From contig NZFL01000013.1 in assembly GCA_002690655.1 (NCBI GenBank), forward strand, positions 1-64,000: a stretch of DNA of 64,000 nucleotides, written 5' to 3'. The notes under the pieces are model-generated. The model ran no database searches, was not told the origin of the DNA, and saw only the letters and a program-made list of their open reading frames with translations. Positions 1-8,658 of the stretch are shown piece after piece. The translations under genes were made by a program, and so were the position numbers. The stretch's first letter is position 1; each line of letters starts with the position of its first letter. This DNA comes from Pedosphaera sp. (GTDB taxonomy: Bacteria; Verrucomicrobiota; Verrucomicrobiia; Limisphaerales; AAA164-E04).

Positions 1-94
1 ATGCTGAGGCATCGTACCAGAAACCAGATTCATGGCCTTTTGTTCGAATCGATCGAATCTCCTGTTGTTCAGCTCCTGCAGGGAGAAGGTTTTG
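1..94. other. Window-start region downstream of the first propeller gene
   Basis: Bases before the minus-strand gene that ends at 95. No gene or terminator hairpin is supported here. Confidence 0.4.
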
Positions 95-1414
95 TCAGTC
101 CCGTTTCTTCTCGATGCGGTAAAGGCTTTTGTCACTTCGAAGAAAGAGTGCTTGACCATCCACTGCGGCGCTAGCCATCAATTGACCGTTCAATTGATTT
201 TTGGAAACAACTTTAAATTCTTTCCCGGCTTCGATGACGGTGGTTTTGCCTTCTCGACTGTGAAAATAGACCCGCCCGTTGGACTGAAGAGGGGAAGCGG
301 AATAATTGCCACCTATGCGTTCGCGCCAATGTTCTTTTCCTGTGTGAGCATCCAGGCAGGTCACCATGCCTGCGCTATCGCTGACAAAATAAATTTCATC
401 TCCAACGAGGATCGCAGAGGGTTGGTTAGACACGCCGCGATTCCATTTCCATTTGATGGAGGGTTTGTTTGAGCTCAGGTAATCGATGGCCAACAATTGC
501 GGGCGCATGAAACTTGTGATCACATAAATCAACCCATGACCAGCGACAGGGCGAGGCACGATGGAGAACCCAAGCATGCCGTAATTGAGTTTATTTAATT
601 CCTTGCCCGTATTGGGATCGTAAGAGTAAAGCCAGTCTGCTGCTGGAGAATAAAGGATAGGTTGTCCGTTCGTATCAAGGATAAGGGGGGTGCCATAAGA
701 TTTTTTAAGCTGTGGATTGGGATTCATTTCTCCGGTCCGGTCCGTTCGCCACGCAACGCCTCCGTCCTTCTTGTTTAAGGCAACAACGTATTGCTGATCA
801 CTTCCGTCCATATGAAAAATCAGTTTATCATCCCAGATGATCGGTGTACTTCCCGGCCCGTTTTCGTGATGGACGTATAAGTCCTGATTGCGCCAGATGA
901 CCTTTGTCGTTCTGGTATCCACGCATGCTGTTCCGTAAGAACCAAAGTGGCAGTAAAGTTTTCCATCTTCGATGACCGGAGTGGGGGAGGCGTAGCTATT
1001 GAGTTTGTGCGTCCATTGTGGGTTCTTTTTGTGAATAATTTCGAAATCATGCAGTAATTCACCCGAGTCTTTATCAATACAAACGGCGTGAAGTTTAACA
1101 GAAGAAAGTACGACGACGGGTTGCCCTCCGGTATTGGATTTAAGGCGTTCTTCTTTCTCCTCTTCACTTGCCTTGATCTCATGTGCGGCGGTCAACCAAA
1201 TCTGGTTGCCTTCGATGACTGGAGATGACCAGCCTTTGCCTGGAACGGGAGTCTTCCATGAGATGTTCTGAGTCTCACTCCATTCGGTAGGGATCTTTCC
1301 CTCCGCGTGACCTTGTCCTGTGGGGCCACGCCATTGCTTCCAGTCGGCTTGCATGTTCAATACGTAACATGTGGAAAAGACCGCTGCCCAAAGTGTCCTG
1401 TAATTCTTCATCAT
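95..1414 (-). CDS. Secreted PQQ-like beta-propeller protein
   Basis: A 439-residue exported protein. The N-terminus is a short signal peptide (basic MMKNYR, hydrophobic stretch, mature part near QADWKQWRGP). The opening W-x-Q-W-R-G-P, followed by W-S-E-T and W-K-T-P-V-P-G-x-G-W-S-S-P, is typical of planctomycete and verrucomicrobial PQQ-binding-like (BamB-like) propellers. Repeated blade motifs such as LDAHTGKEHW and YDPNTGKELN are visible through the rest of the chain. No catalytic residues of true quinoprotein dehydrogenases (calcium-site Glu/Asn/Asp set, disulfide-linked Cys pair) could be recognised, so a structural or binding role is more likely than alcohol oxidation. It is a paralogue of the proteins at 7051-8364 and 33243-34679. 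The start is either of two adjacent ATGs at 1414 and 1411. Family assignment is secure; function unknown. Confidence 0.85.
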   Translation of the reverse strand: MMKNYRTLWAAVFSTCYVLNMQADWKQWRGPTGQGHAEGKIPTEWSETQNISWKTPVPGKGWSSPVIEGNQIWLTAAHEIKASEEEKEERLKSNTGGQPVVVLSSVKLHAVCIDKDSGELLHDFEIIHKKNPQWTHKLNSYASPTPVIEDGKLYCHFGSYGTACVDTRTTKVIWRNQDLYVHHENGPGSTPIIWDDKLIFHMDGSDQQYVVALNKKDGGVAWRTDRTGEMNPNPQLKKSYGTPLILDTNGQPILYSPAADWLYSYDPNTGKELNKLNYGMLGFSIVPRPVAGHGLIYVITSFMRPQLLAIDYLSSNKPSIKWKWNRGVSNQPSAILVGDEIYFVSDSAGMVTCLDAHTGKEHWRERIGGNYSASPLQSNGRVYFHSREGKTTVIEAGKEFKVVSKNQLNGQLMASAAVDGQALFLRSDKSLYRIEKKRD

Positions 1415-1756
1415 GAATGAACACAGAATGATACATTCACGACCTGGGTCAAGATGTTCTACATCGCGTTTTTACGTAAATTTTTTCAGGTCAATCACAT
1501 CGTTTCTATCCGCCTTGCATCTTTAGAGAAGGCACTTGGATACGGAAATTGCAGCGGGCCCGAGTGGGGTGTCTGAACGCCATGAGGGCTTTCTGAGTTG
1601 TGCTTCCGCATAATATCTTTCTAGGGCTGTTTCCTCTGCAAGAAATACACGATCAACAAGCTGCGACCAGATCACAGCATGGACACGCTCCTGATTCCGC
1701 TGGATCAAGGACCCAGAGAAAATTTTATCCAGAGATTAAAATTTTCTTTGGCAATG
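1415..1756. other. Intergenic stretch with no recognised gene
   Basis: 342 bases between two minus-strand propeller genes. A TTG-started 61-codon frame on the minus strand (1523-1708) is open, but it has no ATG and no recognisable motif, so I do not call it a gene. The part next to the 95-1414 gene (about 1415-1520) is AT-rich and presumably holds its promoter; I could not identify a specific box. Confidence 0.5.
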
Positions 1757-4700
1757 CTAATTTTGATGTTTCGGAGCAAACACAATGGATGTTTCCATCC
1801 ACGAGCCGCAGCTGCAACCTCCACCCCCTTCAGGTGAAAGCAACAAGCCCGCAGCGGGGATGGTGCTCAACCAGCAGTCAGGGCGTAGTCGATTCCAGCT
1901 CGTTGTTTTTCCTTGAGAGGGATCCCACATCGTGACATTGCCGGATCGGAAAAACAGGGCCTTTTCGGTGGCTGCATAAGTGCCGCAGCCTCCACCTGGC
2001 ATTTTGATATCCAGTATTTTTCCATCAGCAAGAGATAACGCACTGGGTCGAACATAGACTTTATTCCCGACGATGGCTGGTCGAGCCATGTGACCTCCAT
2101 GATGATCTTGAGGCCATTTAATATCTACGTTCCAATCCACTTCTCCGTTTGCGTCATCGAAAGCATAAGTGTGATAAGATCCACTACCCGATGAAACCAA
2201 TACTAGTTTTCCTCCTCCGTGAGCCATGTAGAGGGCGACTTCTCCGGGAACGATGTTGAGCGCAGAAGACCACAAGGTCTGTCCTGATTCAAGATCAAGA
2301 CAGACAAGGTATTGATCTTTCCAAAAGAGACTGCCTCCCAGTTGGCGAGTTTTGGCTGCCATGATGTCCGGGTTGCGTGCTTCTACGAACCAGGCTTTGC
2401 CGTCCGCCATCGTGATAGAACTATTTACGATGAGCCCCCCTTGGTAAAGCCATTGAAGTTTTCCACTGTATGAATCAAGAGCGAACAAGTTTTCGCTGCA
2501 AACCTTCTGAGTTACCTCACCGCTTTTGGCGTCATACCAGCCTGCACCTCCACCGCCCCAGAAGTTGGTGAAAGCCGATCCTTGAATGACCGAACTGCCA
2601 ATGATGCGCTTGCGGTGGGGCGAGAGGTAAGACCAGTCCAAAGGCTCATCAGGGTTGGCCTGCGGTGGTACGGGAAAGCGATTGACGAGATGCCCTGTCT
2701 GGGCATCCCATTTCCAACACTCGCCATCCATCGCGGTAAACAAAAAATCCCGGTTGGCCGACCAATTACTGCTGTCACGTGGCATGTTGAATCTTTGAAT
2801 ACGCGGCAGCTCTTTGGCCCAGAGGACATAGCCATTGTAGGCGTCCAAAGCAATGATTCGATTCAGTCCCTGCACAAATAATCTTCCACCTGTGGATAAT
2901 GGAGCAGGCTTGCGTCCGTTGCGGTCGGGTTGAGCCCGGGGGCCGGGGCGACCAATCCATTGAACCTCGAGATCTTCTGTCTTGGAGACACCTGATAATT
3001 TTTCACCGCCAAACGCCGCATTGGAAGCATTGCCATATTGATGAGACCATTCCCCTGAACCTTCCAATGGTCCGCGAGTCATCATCATACCCTCTGTACC
3101 TGATTTGAGTTCCAGTTGATGCTTTACTGCCATCTTTTTCAGGGCGGCGAACCAAGGTGAAAGATGAGCTTTCTCCTGTTCGATTCCTTTTGGCGTAGGA
3201 ATATAGGCCACTCCTCCATCAGGACGCAGCCACTGGGCAACATTTTTAAATAAAGGAGGTAGGAGGGCTGGTTCTGAGCTTGACGCGGGATGGATGACAA
3301 TCAAGTTGGCAAACATGGGAGTGATCGGCAATGGCAGCGAGGCAGTTGACTTGTGAATGGCGATACGCGATCCATAACTTCCGAGCGATGTTAACATGTC
3401 CCTTGATGACGCAATTTTTTGCGGATCTTTCTCGAGACCGATAATACGTAGTTGACTCTGCTTCGCCAGGCTGTGCGCCAAGCGACCATCATCGCTCCCA
3501 ATCAAGAGTCCGATACCTTGTCGAATACCCGTGTCCTCAATCAAAGTGGCAGCCAATCGTGATGCTTCAAGGTTTGATGTGGTGTGAGGTAAGGCCGTAA
3601 TTCTGGGCATTGAAAAGTTAAAGAGGTTGTCACATTCGAACTCCTCCGTGGCTTTAAGGCTACCATCATTACCAATTGCCTCGACAGTGAATGAGTAGAC
3701 TCGATTATGCTGCAGCGATGAGAGAACCATGCGATGCTCTGTTTTCAACTGGTTTTCCAGGAAGACAACGGGTTCCTTGTTTTTACCGGTTAAAATGAGT
3801 TTAGTCGGGCTCGGCTGGACGGTTTCGTACGAGATTTCTGCTTCCGATTTCGAGATGAATTGCAGGATAGGGCCGGATGCCAATTCAAGGACAGGTGCAG
3901 GAGGCTCGGGCAATGGGAAATCAACTTCTCGTGTATGATTGCCGATTTCTTCCACACTGAGGACTCGATGGTAAACTCGGACTTCATGCACCATGCCTTT
4001 GCTGAAATAATGTTCATCCTTGTCGTGATAAGCTCCTATTTCATAAAAGGCACTGGGCGGATATTGAATCGCACCGCTCTGTTGTGTTGAGGTGGCAGCT
4101 ATTGCTCCATTGACGTGCAGTGACATTGTGGCTCCATCATAGGTAGCCGCGAGATGATACCACTGCCCCGTGAGGAAATCCTCGTCAGCTTTCATGTAGT
4201 TGAGTTTGTCAGGCCCATTTTGACCATTCAGCGCAAAGCTGAACTTTTGATCCACAAATCCAAGTAACCAACCTTTTTCATAGGTGCCGTTATCCTGGAT
4301 GGCACCCACAATGCCGCCCCACGAAAGTGGTTCGTCAATACGCACCCAGGCTTCTACCGAGAATTGTTTTTTCGGGATTTCAGAATCAGATAAATCTCCC
4401 TTAATAAGCGCACTGGTCGATCCATCCAGTGTCAAAGCTTGCTTCTCATCGATCCTGGCCAGTTTGGCAGATCCGACTAAACTGGCTGGAAGTTTGCCCG
4501 CCAGGTTGCGTATGACTTTTCCTTCTGTCGCATCCTGATGGAATACCCAACGACTTATCAATGAATCATCCTTTACCGTTTGAATCGGCTTCAGTGGAGG
4601 TAAACTTTCAGATTCGTTTTCAACCGTCTGGCTGAGCGCAAGTGGAGAACTTGCCGTGGGGCGAAAGGATTGAATGATACCCTGATCCGTGCTCGCGTAG

Positions 4701-5890
4701 AGCGCTCCGTTTGCCACTGCCAGGCCGTAAACGCGACCAGGTATGGATGATTGCCAGATCATCTTGCCACTCAATGCCTCAAAAGCTGCGAGTGTGTCCG
4801 TACCTCCGGCAAAAAGGGTTTCTCCAGCCTTGATCAGACTATGAGAAAATGTGTTTTCCTGGCCCCACAGAGGATTCTTGTTTTTCCGATCCATCGCAGC
4901 CAGGGATTTGTTTGTGAGAAAAAATGCTTTTCCTCCATCCACGACCATGGCGTTGGCGTTGGGGTAAGTGGCATATGTCGTTCGATTACTGCGGTTGCTG
5001 TCGGTGATCCATCCGGTTTTGTTACCCGGGCCATGCAGAATACCCGCATCGGGTGTCAACATGACAAAACATCCGCCTCCCCCTTTGAGCCCTCCTAACA
5101 ATTTTCCATTGGCTCGGTTGTAGATGAGTGGGGATACCCTTCCTTGCGGAGCTACCAAATGTTCATCGGAGGCAAGCAATGCACCTTCAAACGTGGCGTT
5201 GTCGATTCGCTTGACGAAATGTTTGTCCGCAGAGAGTTTTCCTGTCGCGGCATCGATGGCGCATAGATAGGATTCCTTCCAGGGTAAAAGGCTTGCGGCG
5301 AAATAAGCCGTATCATTCCGAATGAGAACTCCAGTGCGTATGGGCCAAAAAGGGATCAACTTGCCATTGTTCAAGATTAGTTTTTCGAGAGGTTTAGGGC
5401 GAAAAGACCAGATTAAAAGGCCATTCTCCGCATCAAGACATCGAACCATGCCATCATCCGACCCGAAAAAGATCCTTCCATCATGATACGATGGCGCAAT
5501 CCTGATGGGGCCGTCTGTGTGATAAATCCAACGTTCATTGCCCGTTTCCGCATCCAGGCAGCGCACGGAGTCATCCACACTGGATCCGAAATACACATTA
5601 TTGCCTGCGGCAATGACATGGAAAACCGGGTCGTAATTCCTCATGGACTTCAGTCCGCGAATGCCTGCGTAGGCATCCCACTTGGCGGGACCTGACCATG
5701 CAGGATGAGGAGGGTGTGCAGATTTCCACGTCCAAGATGTTTCCAGCGAGCTGGCGGGCAGTTGCTCCGTTGTCTTGGCGCTCCTGTAATTATCGTGCTG
5801 GTAAACGGGCCAATCTTCTCCGACAGCCTCAAACGTCAAAAAAGCAGCGATGACACAAAAGGTTGATTGAATGTTTTTCCAGTGAAACAT
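1757..5890 (-). CDS. Giant secreted double beta-propeller with LamG and methyltransferase-like domains
   Basis: About 1377 residues from the preferred ATG at 5890, which places a signal peptide (FCVIAAFLTFEAVG) directly at the N-terminus; in-frame ATGs at 5929 and 5977 would add an unlikely extension. Domain order: a first PQQ-like propeller (about residues 30-425, blades such as CLDAETGNERWIYHT); a concanavalin A-like LamG_3 lectin domain (about 450-665, with FSVEAWVRI, WYHLAATYDG and the VRVYHRVLS ending); a short Ig-like linker; a Rossmann domain resembling class I SAM methyltransferases (about 785-900, IGSDDGRLA as glycine loop and GLEKDP as the acidic strand-2 end); and a second propeller (about 975 to the end, ALDAYNGYVLWA, CLDLESGQTLW). 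Propeller and LamG parts are secure; methyltransferase activity is unproven and would be odd outside the cytoplasm. It may bind cell-surface or environmental glycans. Confidence 0.85.
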   Translation of the reverse strand: MFHWKNIQSTFCVIAAFLTFEAVGEDWPVYQHDNYRSAKTTEQLPASSLETSWTWKSAHPPHPAWSGPAKWDAYAGIRGLKSMRNYDPVFHVIAAGNNVYFGSSVDDSVRCLDAETGNERWIYHTDGPIRIAPSYHDGRIFFGSDDGMVRCLDAENGLLIWSFRPKPLEKLILNNGKLIPFWPIRTGVLIRNDTAYFAASLLPWKESYLCAIDAATGKLSADKHFVKRIDNATFEGALLASDEHLVAPQGRVSPLIYNRANGKLLGGLKGGGGCFVMLTPDAGILHGPGNKTGWITDSNRSNRTTYATYPNANAMVVDGGKAFFLTNKSLAAMDRKNKNPLWGQENTFSHSLIKAGETLFAGGTDTLAAFEALSGKMIWQSSIPGRVYGLAVANGALYASTDQGIIQSFRPTASSPLALSQTVENESESLPPLKPIQTVKDDSLISRWVFHQDATEGKVIRNLAGKLPASLVGSAKLARIDEKQALTLDGSTSALIKGDLSDSEIPKKQFSVEAWVRIDEPLSWGGIVGAIQDNGTYEKGWLLGFVDQKFSFALNGQNGPDKLNYMKADEDFLTGQWYHLAATYDGATMSLHVNGAIAATSTQQSGAIQYPPSAFYEIGAYHDKDEHYFSKGMVHEVRVYHRVLSVEEIGNHTREVDFPLPEPPAPVLELASGPILQFISKSEAEISYETVQPSPTKLILTGKNKEPVVFLENQLKTEHRMVLSSLQHNRVYSFTVEAIGNDGSLKATEEFECDNLFNFSMPRITALPHTTSNLEASRLAATLIEDTGIRQGIGLLIGSDDGRLAHSLAKQSQLRIIGLEKDPQKIASSRDMLTSLGSYGSRIAIHKSTASLPLPITPMFANLIVIHPASSSEPALLPPLFKNVAQWLRPDGGVAYIPTPKGIEQEKAHLSPWFAALKKMAVKHQLELKSGTEGMMMTRGPLEGSGEWSHQYGNASNAAFGGEKLSGVSKTEDLEVQWIGRPGPRAQPDRNGRKPAPLSTGGRLFVQGLNRIIALDAYNGYVLWAKELPRIQRFNMPRDSSNWSANRDFLFTAMDGECWKWDAQTGHLVNRFPVPPQANPDEPLDWSYLSPHRKRIIGSSVIQGSAFTNFWGGGGAGWYDAKSGEVTQKVCSENLFALDSYSGKLQWLYQGGLIVNSSITMADGKAWFVEARNPDIMAAKTRQLGGSLFWKDQYLVCLDLESGQTLWSSALNIVPGEVALYMAHGGGKLVLVSSGSGSYHTYAFDDANGEVDWNVDIKWPQDHHGGHMARPAIVGNKVYVRPSALSLADGKILDIKMPGGGCGTYAATEKALFFRSGNVTMWDPSQGKTTSWNRLRPDCWLSTIPAAGLLLSPEGGGGCSCGSWMETSIVFAPKHQN

Positions 5891-6121
5891 GAAGTGATGA
5901 AGTGAGGGCAGGTTCAATTGAAAACGCATGACATATTGAAATTTAAATATCGCAATGGGCTGTTCTGTTCGATTCAAATTCGAATTGACGGTCCTTAAGC
6001 TGAACTATGTTGACGGATACCCTTCAAGTCAATCGATCATCCGCTCTAATATGCCTTGTGGAGTCCCTGAAATTAAAACACGATGAAGTCATATTTTCTT
6101 GAAAACAAAGGACTCCATTTT

Positions 6122-6997
6122 ATGAAACTTCGCTACTCTTTATCGATTCTTTGGATACTCGGTTTCAATTACTGCCTTCATTCCGAAGATTGGAAAGTCA
6201 TGGTTCCTCCAAGCGAATTAAAGCTTGCTGGTTTTTACGAGAAATATGTCAGTGTGGATGGTTACCCTGTGGTGAGTTCAGGGAAAGTGAATGACTTTGC
6301 CCTCAAAGAAGCGGCTTACCTGATCGACATGATGCTGGCGCAGCGGCCCGACGTCCGAGATGCCATGATCAAAAGCGGATCCAGGATGATCGTGATGGCT
6401 CATGATGAATACACGACTGACGTACCGGAACATGCTCATCTGAAGCCCAAAGAATACTGGGATGCCAGAGCTCGTGGGCTGGGTGGCTCGCGCACGGATC
6501 CGGTCTGTTCATGTGGGCAAGAAAACCTGCTTGGCTTTGAGGGGGATCCGTATGCAACAGAGAATATTTTGATCCACGAATTTGCCCATAATATTCACTA
6601 TCGGGGACTGGATCGATTGGATGACACGTTTGATGATCGATTGAAGAAATCCTATGATGCCGCGATGGAAACTGGGCTTTGGAAAGGTAAGTATGCTTCG
6701 GTGAATCATGCCGAATACTTTGCGGAAGGTGTTCAATCCTGGTTCAACAATAACCGTCCACCGGATCATGACCATAACCATGTCGACACAAGAGCTGAAC
6801 TCCTTGAATATGACCCCGGATTAGCGGCTTTATGTGCCGAGGTTTTTGGTGAAACCAAGCTGGTATACACCAAGCCAATCCAACGCTTGAGAGACCATTT
6901 AGAGGGATATGATCCAAGAGGGGCACCCAGTTTCGCCTGGCCTGAGAGCTTTAAAAAGGTTCAACGTGAAATCCGCGAGAAAGCCAGCTCTCGCTAG
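6122..6997 (+). CDS. Secreted HExxH zinc metallopeptidase-like protein
   Basis: About 291 residues from the ATG at 6122, preceded nine bases upstream by AAAGGA; the earlier in-frame ATG at 6083 would put 13 residues before the signal peptide (YSLSILWILGFNYCLHS). The mature protein carries a zinc-site motif HEFAHNIH (about residues 152-159), and a downstream acidic segment NHAEYFAEG (about 196-203) that could give the third ligand, as in gluzincin-like folds. A conserved tail follows, with RAELLEYDP. I recognise this as a family common in Planctomycetes and Verrucomicrobia, but know of no characterised member. It is the only plus-strand gene among four minus-strand secreted proteins. A peptidase role is inferred from the motif only; the substrate is unknown. 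Confidence 0.75.
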   Translation: MKLRYSLSILWILGFNYCLHSEDWKVMVPPSELKLAGFYEKYVSVDGYPVVSSGKVNDFALKEAAYLIDMMLAQRPDVRDAMIKSGSRMIVMAHDEYTTDVPEHAHLKPKEYWDARARGLGGSRTDPVCSCGQENLLGFEGDPYATENILIHEFAHNIHYRGLDRLDDTFDDRLKKSYDAAMETGLWKGKYASVNHAEYFAEGVQSWFNNNRPPDHDHNHVDTRAELLEYDPGLAALCAEVFGETKLVYTKPIQRLRDHLEGYDPRGAPSFAWPESFKKVQREIREKASSR

Positions 6998-7050
6998 GGT
7001 AATCAGGAGTCACTCGCCACTCTGATCTATGGGTGAATCACTCACTCGCT

Positions 7051-8364
7051 CTATTTTGTGAATTGGTAGAGGTCGGTCTCGCTGCGGATGTAAATGCTGT
7101 TTCCCACAATGGCAGGTGATGCATGGAACCTACCCTTCAGTTCATTGATCGCAAGTAAGGCGGGTTCTTTACCGCGTTTCAAAACCAGTGTTCTTCCTGA
7201 CTCACTGAGCAGGTAAATGCGATTCGATGCGCCTACCGGGGAAGCGCTGAAATTGGGGTTATCGGGAAGGCGATGTTTAAAGTAATATCGATGTCCATCA
7301 TTAGCGCGTACACAGGAAAAAAAGCTGCTGTCTTCCAGCAGGTAAAGTTCATCCCCCCAGAGCATGGGGCAGGGGACATAGGGTGCGCCCCTATCGAGCG
7401 ACCATGCAATACTTTTGGAGTCTGTAAGGTCACCTATTTGTCCAAGACGGATTGCATGCACTGTATCTTTTCTCCAACCGCTGGCGGCAAACGCCAGGCC
7501 ATGGCCTACAGCAGGCATCGGAATCGCACTCAGACTTTGACCTCCACATTTCCACAAAAATCTTCCGGTGTTCAAATCGTAAGCACAAACCGAAGAGCCG
7601 TTGATGACGATTCGATCTTGGCCTTCATATCTATAGACGCGAGGAGTGGTCCAGTTGGAAACTTCATCACGACGGGTCTTCCATATTTCTTTTCCTGTAT
7701 GCTTATCGATGGCTACTACGAATGATTGGAGTTCATGGTCGACAACAATGATTAACTTGTCGCCATGCAGCACGGGTGATGTTCCTTCCCCCAAAGCATC
7801 CTCCATGGCCTGTGCTTGAAAATCTTTTTTCCACACAAGTCGCCCATCGTAGTCGTGGCAAAACAATCCAAAGGAGCCGAAATACGAGTAGACGTGTTTT
7901 CCATCAGTTACGGGAGATTCGGAGGCGAATCCGCCTTTCCTGTGGTGGCCTTGATGCGGCATTCCCTCAAACACAGTTTTGTTCCAGAGCGTCTTGCCTT
8001 TGATGCCGTCCAGGCAAATCACCGCGAGCCGCTGAGCTTTCCATGAACTTGCGACCGCTGGATGTTTTCGAATGTTTGGAGTGCCTGAAGGAATCACATC
8101 AGGGACGGGCAGTTTTTCACTCAACGGGATGGCTGTATGAATGAAAATACGATCCCCCCAGATGATTGGCGTACTCCATCCACTGCCTGGTATCGGTGTT
8201 TTCCAAGCTAGATTTTCTGTCTCACTCCACGTAACCGGCGGATCTCCCTCGGGTGAAACACCATTCCAGGTAGGCCCCCTCCATTGAGGCCAATGGTGAT
8301 TGGCCTCGCTCGCAAGGGCTAGAGCGCTGGTGAACAAAAAGAGGGTGTTCAGGAACGTCCGCAT
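7051..8364 (-). CDS. Secreted PQQ-like beta-propeller protein
   Basis: About 437 residues from the ATG at 8364, which gives a clean signal peptide (MRTFLNTLFLFTSALALASEA); the frame stays open to 8433 but the extra residues are charged and not signal-like. The mature N-terminus HWPQWRGPTWNGVSPEGDP and WSETENLAWKTPIPGSGWS match the BamB-like propeller subgroup seen at 95-1414, and the two are clearly paralogues along their whole length (shared VAIDKHTGKEIWKT-like blades, C-terminal SIYIRSETDLY). Divergently transcribed from the SGNH hydrolase gene, with about 290 bases between them. No quinoprotein catalytic site is evident. Probable role: exported scaffold or binding protein; specific function unknown. 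Confidence 0.83.
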   Translation of the reverse strand: MRTFLNTLFLFTSALALASEANHHWPQWRGPTWNGVSPEGDPPVTWSETENLAWKTPIPGSGWSTPIIWGDRIFIHTAIPLSEKLPVPDVIPSGTPNIRKHPAVASSWKAQRLAVICLDGIKGKTLWNKTVFEGMPHQGHHRKGGFASESPVTDGKHVYSYFGSFGLFCHDYDGRLVWKKDFQAQAMEDALGEGTSPVLHGDKLIIVVDHELQSFVVAIDKHTGKEIWKTRRDEVSNWTTPRVYRYEGQDRIVINGSSVCAYDLNTGRFLWKCGGQSLSAIPMPAVGHGLAFAASGWRKDTVHAIRLGQIGDLTDSKSIAWSLDRGAPYVPCPMLWGDELYLLEDSSFFSCVRANDGHRYYFKHRLPDNPNFSASPVGASNRIYLLSESGRTLVLKRGKEPALLAINELKGRFHASPAIVGNSIYIRSETDLYQFTK

Positions 8365-8658
8365 GGATCCAAGGCTAGTGGCTGGATTTTGGAAATCAAA
8401 CCGAATGTGGATGACAATATCCCAATGGCGCACTCAGGACATTGCCTGTCTTCTTCCCTGAACTCTTTTCAATCGTCGAAATGCTACGAGTTTGTTTACT
8501 GACCGATAAGGCATCCATAAACAAGCGAAAAGAAAGGTGCTCAAGCCTCGTGACGATCAAAGAAAGCTTTTCATCTAGTCGGAAGGTCGTCAGGGAAGAC
8601 GATTCATTGCAGGGTTGTGTCGAAGTGGGGGTATCTGTCAGTATTGGACTCGAGATTT

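Follow-up and report, generated by a model that had tools for sequence, protein, structure and literature searches.

A methyltransferase-like domain with an eroded SAM site precedes a cysteine-bearing propeller in putatively exported proteins of Verrucomicrobiota

S-adenosylmethionine (SAM) is a cytoplasmic cofactor; what, then, is a domain resembling a class I SAM-dependent methyltransferase (MTase) doing in a protein that begins with a signal peptide? The question is raised by a 1377-residue protein encoded in a 64,000-nucleotide stretch of DNA from Pedosphaera sp. (contig NZFL01000013.1), hereafter the window. An initial annotation, made from the letters alone, described two PQQ-like propellers and a LamG domain in this protein, and matches to PF13360, PF01011 and PF13385 bear this out. 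The complete domain order is signal peptide–propeller A–LamG–FN3-like–MTase-like–propeller B, the FN3-like stretch ahead of the MTase-like domain having been overlooked before. The features are listed below in window coordinates.

1757..5890, minus strand: whole gene, 1377 aa from ATG (open frame; Pfam)
5819..5890, minus strand: predicted Sec-type signal peptide, residues about 1–24, without twin-arginine (sequence)
4571..5818, minus strand: PQQ/BamB-like propeller A, about residues 25–440 (PF13360 matches, best 95–219; outer limits inferred)
3944..4393, minus strand: LamG/concanavalin-like domain (Laminin_G_3), residues 500–649 (PF13385, E 1.9e-26)
3632..3913, minus strand: FN3-like linker, about residues 660–753, ~90 aa (sub-threshold fn3 / Pur_ac_phosph_N, E 0.02–0.04)
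3056..3631, minus strand: class I MTase-like domain, residues 754–945 (AlphaFold, Foldseek, VIA-align, family profile vs. PDB)
3485..3499, minus strand: motif I remnant G798-S-D-D-G802, standard GxGxG (family alignment)
3431..3433, minus strand: E820, the retained β2 acid, which in MTases binds the SAM ribose (family alignment)
1760..3055, minus strand: propeller B, residues 946–1377, with the family signature W(S/T)H at its start (PF01011)
1808..1876, minus strand: cysteine signature of propeller B, C1339 (RPDCW) and C1359-S-C1361 (conserved across the family)

Both propellers match the PQQ_2/BamB-like, quinoprotein-like propellers of Verrucomicrobiota (PF13360, PF01011). The protein did not reach the cut-offs of TIGR03075 for PQQ-dependent dehydrogenases (43.7 vs. 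480 bits) or TIGR03300 for BamB (64.4 vs. 285 bits). The three peptides by which the MTase-like segment had been recognized were cited in the right order and map to β1/motif I (residues 795–806), β2 with its acid (816–823) and β4 (860–868); one letter had been misread, the sequence being RQGIGLLIGSDDGRLA rather than GQG... The range proposed for the segment, 2980–3620, covers most of the domain and extends slightly into propeller B. The same neighborhood encodes two more PQQ-type propeller proteins without an MTase domain (95–1414 and 7051–8433), and a divergent neighbor of 304 aa (6083–6997) carries an N-terminal hydrophobic leader and a HEFAH zinc-peptidase-like motif.

Export, also claimed in the initial annotation, agrees with a predicted Sec-type signal peptide. 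The N-terminus has a hydrophobic core at residues 12–23 (mean KD 2.17) followed by AVG/EDW, with the cleavage context MFHWKNIQSTFCVIAAFLTFEAVG/EDW. Judged by our own heuristic on full frames, nearly all complete family members begin with a Sec-like hydrophobic leader whose core ends at an Ala-x-Ala-like site immediately ahead of the first domain, and leaders are likewise present on full frames of the N-terminal type described below; family rows without a leader are mostly frames with an uncertain start or truncated by a contig end. On this basis the window protein is predicted to pass through Sec. Sec transports unfolded chains and the leader lacks a twin-arginine motif, so the MTase-like domain would have to fold outside the cytoplasm without SAM.

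AlphaFold modeling of residues 754–945 yielded seven strands in class I order (pLDDT 89.2, pTM 0.86). With this model, Foldseek gave 3dlc as the top match (E 2e-12), the best solved structures being MTases, and VIA-align returned Z 18.8 to 1xxl (rmsd 2.5, 155 residues) and Z 18.1 to 3dlc (rmsd 3.1, 172 residues). As a single sequence, the domain produced only sub-threshold matches (Methyltransf_25, E 0.005; PDB 3dlc, E 0.43) and, at 18 bits, stayed below the curated PF13649 cut-off of 27 bits, which the relatives L116 (38.1 bits) and L079 (34.4 bits) passed. A family profile built from a 58-row domain alignment matched 3dlc at 7e-15, along with dozens of other MTases, and 47 of the 58 members individually matched Methyltransf_25 at E up to 0.1. 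Chance similarity to MTases is ruled out by the profile and fold evidence together, and the class I fold is settled as far as prediction allows. The MTase-like Rossmann segment of the initial annotation is thereby upheld; the structure-prediction and profile checks that it had set for its own refutation returned a class I MTase fold at full length, with seven strands. Its word 'unrecognized' suits the role and not the domain: curated Pfam MTase models detect many relatives above cut-off, so this is not an unknown fold.

To delimit the family, genome searches and fetched regions were combined, giving 72 matching frames, some of them stand-alone MTases. Scanning genome contigs with the window sequence alone recovered a single near-identical relative. 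The domain was found in 29 of 236 sampled genomes of the class (~12%) and in 34 of 388 of the phylum Verrucomicrobiota (~9%), and a single genome can have as many as 12 matches; the plasmid records searched contained no match. Nearly all matches lie in frames of 800–2600 aa, and the few in frames of about 240–310 aa resemble stand-alone MTases or unrelated enzymes. The genome of the window itself holds two further divergent paralogs (contigs C7 and C33), and its contig C23 duplicates the entire locus almost identically; there, L162 (G000:C23:52000-68000) corresponds to window 1–8433, with the MTase–propeller gene again flanked by PQQ and peptidase genes. MTase genes with identical scores are shared by other contig pairs as well (C2/C3), and the duplicate contigs probably reflect redundancy of the assembly at strain level, its listed contamination being 5.92.

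Family members follow two architectures. The window type runs propeller A–(LamG–FN3-like, optional)–MTase–propeller B, and the N-terminal type, exemplified by L116:5037-8843 and monophyletic on the tree (100/97), runs MTase–propeller B–propeller A. The model of an N-terminal-type domain has five core strands plus one short extra and still matches MTases (Z 16.1 with rmsd 2.2 across 120 residues). Unlike the window domain, it has no helix and strand after β5, so the N-terminal type is short of some of the C-terminal half usual in MTases. Its genes also form tandem arrays, four and five genes long, with a separate leader on each gene (L116:1696-15891; L125:571-18209), and similar N-terminal-type proteins are presumably found in Planctomycetota. 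At L124:9874-10650, a 259-aa frame that combines a hydrophobic leader with an intact MTase motif (VADVGAGTGLFT), apparently a stand-alone exported MTase-like protein, adjoins two family members. Lectin-like companions include LamG (window protein), malectin and CBM96 (both L079); they suggest a carbohydrate-facing surface protein.

Propeller A shifts its position, being N-terminal in the window type and C-terminal in the N-terminal type. A search with propeller B only, in turn, found the MTase domain immediately in front at every propeller-B locus having upstream sequence; the conserved unit is therefore MTase plus propeller B, not a LamG/propeller insert. The initial annotation had treated the domain as an insert between LamG and the second propeller: in the window protein it does stand after LamG and the FN3-like stretch, but it is not private to PQQ–LamG proteins. 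An insert specific to such proteins was accordingly rejected, LamG being optional and the MTase–propeller B unit constant. In 61 of 62 family proteins, the last part of propeller B carries a C...CxC signature, a candidate metal site or disulfide, and this signature, with the obligate MTase domain before propeller B, sets the family apart from other PQQ-type propeller proteins. No c-type heme CxxCH motifs were found in family proteins. The exception to the cysteine signature is a frameshifted relative of the window protein in MAG C_MB218_1 (L001:3-3419, 97% identical), which diverges after residue 1037 in a frameshift-like manner, through either a sequence error or pseudogene formation.

The SAM site of the window domain is damaged in part. 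Motif I reads LIGSDDG, the middle Gly of GxGxG being replaced by Asp and residue 796, usually D/E, by Leu; measured against the (D/E)xGxGxG of functional MTases, the acid and the middle Gly are missing, and the β2 acid (E820) is present. Across the family, the motif-I acid is absent in 55 of 57 rows (D/E retained in 2/57). The 38 window-type rows, the window included, keep the first Gly (G798) in 35, the middle Gly in 13, the third (G802) in 30 and the β2 acid in 35, and D822 is also retained in 35/38. All three glycines and the acid are intact in eight of these 38 and in nine of the 19 members of the other type. By column entropy, the least variable, near-invariant positions are structural (G840, G837, P890, N862); of 118 columns, the middle-Gly position ranks 85 and the adenine-contact loop 102. 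Aligning seven distinct ordinary MTases of this genome to the family profile showed the middle Gly in 7/7 and the β2 acid in 6/7, with the motif-I acid mostly kept; the chance of drawing 7/7 middle glycines from the pooled rows is ~0.002 by our own arithmetic, which ignores relatedness.

A tree built on only 120 columns, with several forks unresolved, separates the family from ordinary MTases (100/97) and scatters the middle-Gly losses over several lineages; SAM-site erosion is recurrent on the tree. In the sister L110 (support 99/95), motif I has become GAARP and Ser replaces the acid, and the domain is retained; the MTase-like domain can thus persist after loss of nearly the whole SAM site. 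As for intact SAM sites among exported members, these are partly kept in the N-terminal type, where acid and glycine losses recur too. Comparing the window gene with its 97%-identical relative gave dN/dS values of 0.164 for the domain and 0.119 overall, which indicates continuing purifying selection on the domain. The SAM-motif residues G798, G802, E820 and D822 showed zero amino-acid changes between close relatives.

We hypothesize that the domain is a degenerate pseudo-MTase that serves as a structural or ligand-binding module before propeller B, exported through Sec and most likely without SAM catalysis (probability about 0.68). Between the two options offered by the initial annotation, loss of cofactor binding with conversion to such a module is the better supported. 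With its SAM site eroded, and with none left in the sister L110, the window protein is unlikely to be catalytic. An ancient fusion would have placed an MTase domain ahead of a PQQ-type propeller B with its cysteines, and the two would be exported together through Sec. Their inseparable pairing suggests packing or docking, in which the MTase-like domain would form a rigid module of propeller B, packing being proposed from gene order; a small-ligand site possibly remains in the old cofactor cleft, and the multi-domain protein as a whole may bind carbohydrate or a surface. Against this reading stands the retention of the first and third glycines and the β2 acid in the window protein and most window-type relatives, together with the members of both types that keep all three glycines and the acid. 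As the former retention goes beyond what pure drift would predict, binding of some nucleotide-like ligand may persist.

Such retention also speaks for a cleft kept for another extracytoplasmic ligand, such as a nucleoside, nucleotide sugar, quinone or oligosaccharide, the domain then being a repurposed ligand sensor. This is unlikely, in our estimate: G798, G802, E820 and D822 are indeed present in most window-type members, and the motifs are unchanged in amino acids between close relatives, but the middle Gly and the adenine-contact loop are variable, and L110 is left without any cleft motifs, so that a ligand, if any, is not subfamily-wide. Somewhat more speculative is a phylum-wide exported sensor or scaffold, whose ex-MTase cleft would bind an extracellular nucleotide-like or sugar ligand read out by the Cys-bearing propeller.

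Decidedly improbable is an active exported MTase that uses SAM released into the periplasm or outside. It would accord with the nine of 19 N-terminal-type members that keep all three glycines and the acid, one of which was examined and passes the Pfam cut-off, and with the separate exported MTase-like protein at L124, whose intact GAGTG motif is encoded next to a family gene. However, SAM is established as cytoplasmic, and the window leader has no twin-arginine motif for export of a preloaded domain; the motif-I acid is lost family-wide and the middle Gly in the window protein, and the N-terminal type is missing the helix and strand after β5. Hardly credible, finally, is a cytoplasmic protein with an ordinary MTase domain and a misread hydrophobic N-terminus. 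Start codons were assumed and leaders called by our own heuristic, yet a hydrophobic core with an Ala-x-Ala-like site recurs in nearly all complete members, companion domains (LamG, malectin, CBM96) and propellers with Cys, as seen here, typify exported proteins, and the SAM motif is damaged regardless.

A non-catalytic pseudo-MTase joined to a propeller can be compared with several known systems. With the UbiE/RebM-like MTases of Methyltransf_25/Methyltransf_11 (PF13649, PF08241), the domain shares the fold, the seven strands, the motif order, the β2 acid and RVLxPGG at β5; unlike them, the family is putatively exported within propeller proteins, has lost the motif-I acid and often the middle Gly, and carries AN/VN in place of FD at β4, the window copy falling below the Pfam cut-off. 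METTL14, the pseudo-MTase partner of METTL3, has a degenerate active site and is non-catalytic, contributing to complex integrity and substrate binding (PMC5023411). A class I fold retained despite a degenerate active site, in a non-catalytic role, makes it an analogy rather than a relative; METTL14 belongs to the MT-A70 clade and is not exported, whereas the present domain would be exported, covalently joined to its propeller. A second analogy concerns the propeller, WDR4 being a WD40 propeller. In METTL1–WDR4 (Trm8–Trm82), an MTase is paired with WDR4, described as a scaffold (PMC10590456). The likeness is again one of analogy and not of kinship, and lies in the pairing of an MTase with a scaffold propeller; an active enzyme and a separate WD40 chain are found there, and a single, putatively exported chain with an eroded SAM site here.

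The literature searched (MTase–propeller and PQQ-like proteins of these phyla; secreted methyltransferases) held no description of the MTase–propeller fusion, and the family therefore appears undescribed. It also appears to be abundant, and no account of its decay series was found in the papers searched. Automatic 'methyltransferase' labels on long propeller proteins are probably wrong as to function. SAM enzymes are usually regarded as intracellular, and here a putatively exported family keeps their fold while the SAM site has been eroded repeatedly. With SAM sites that are intact, partly lost or wholly lost, its members form a natural series for studying the transition from enzyme to scaffold.
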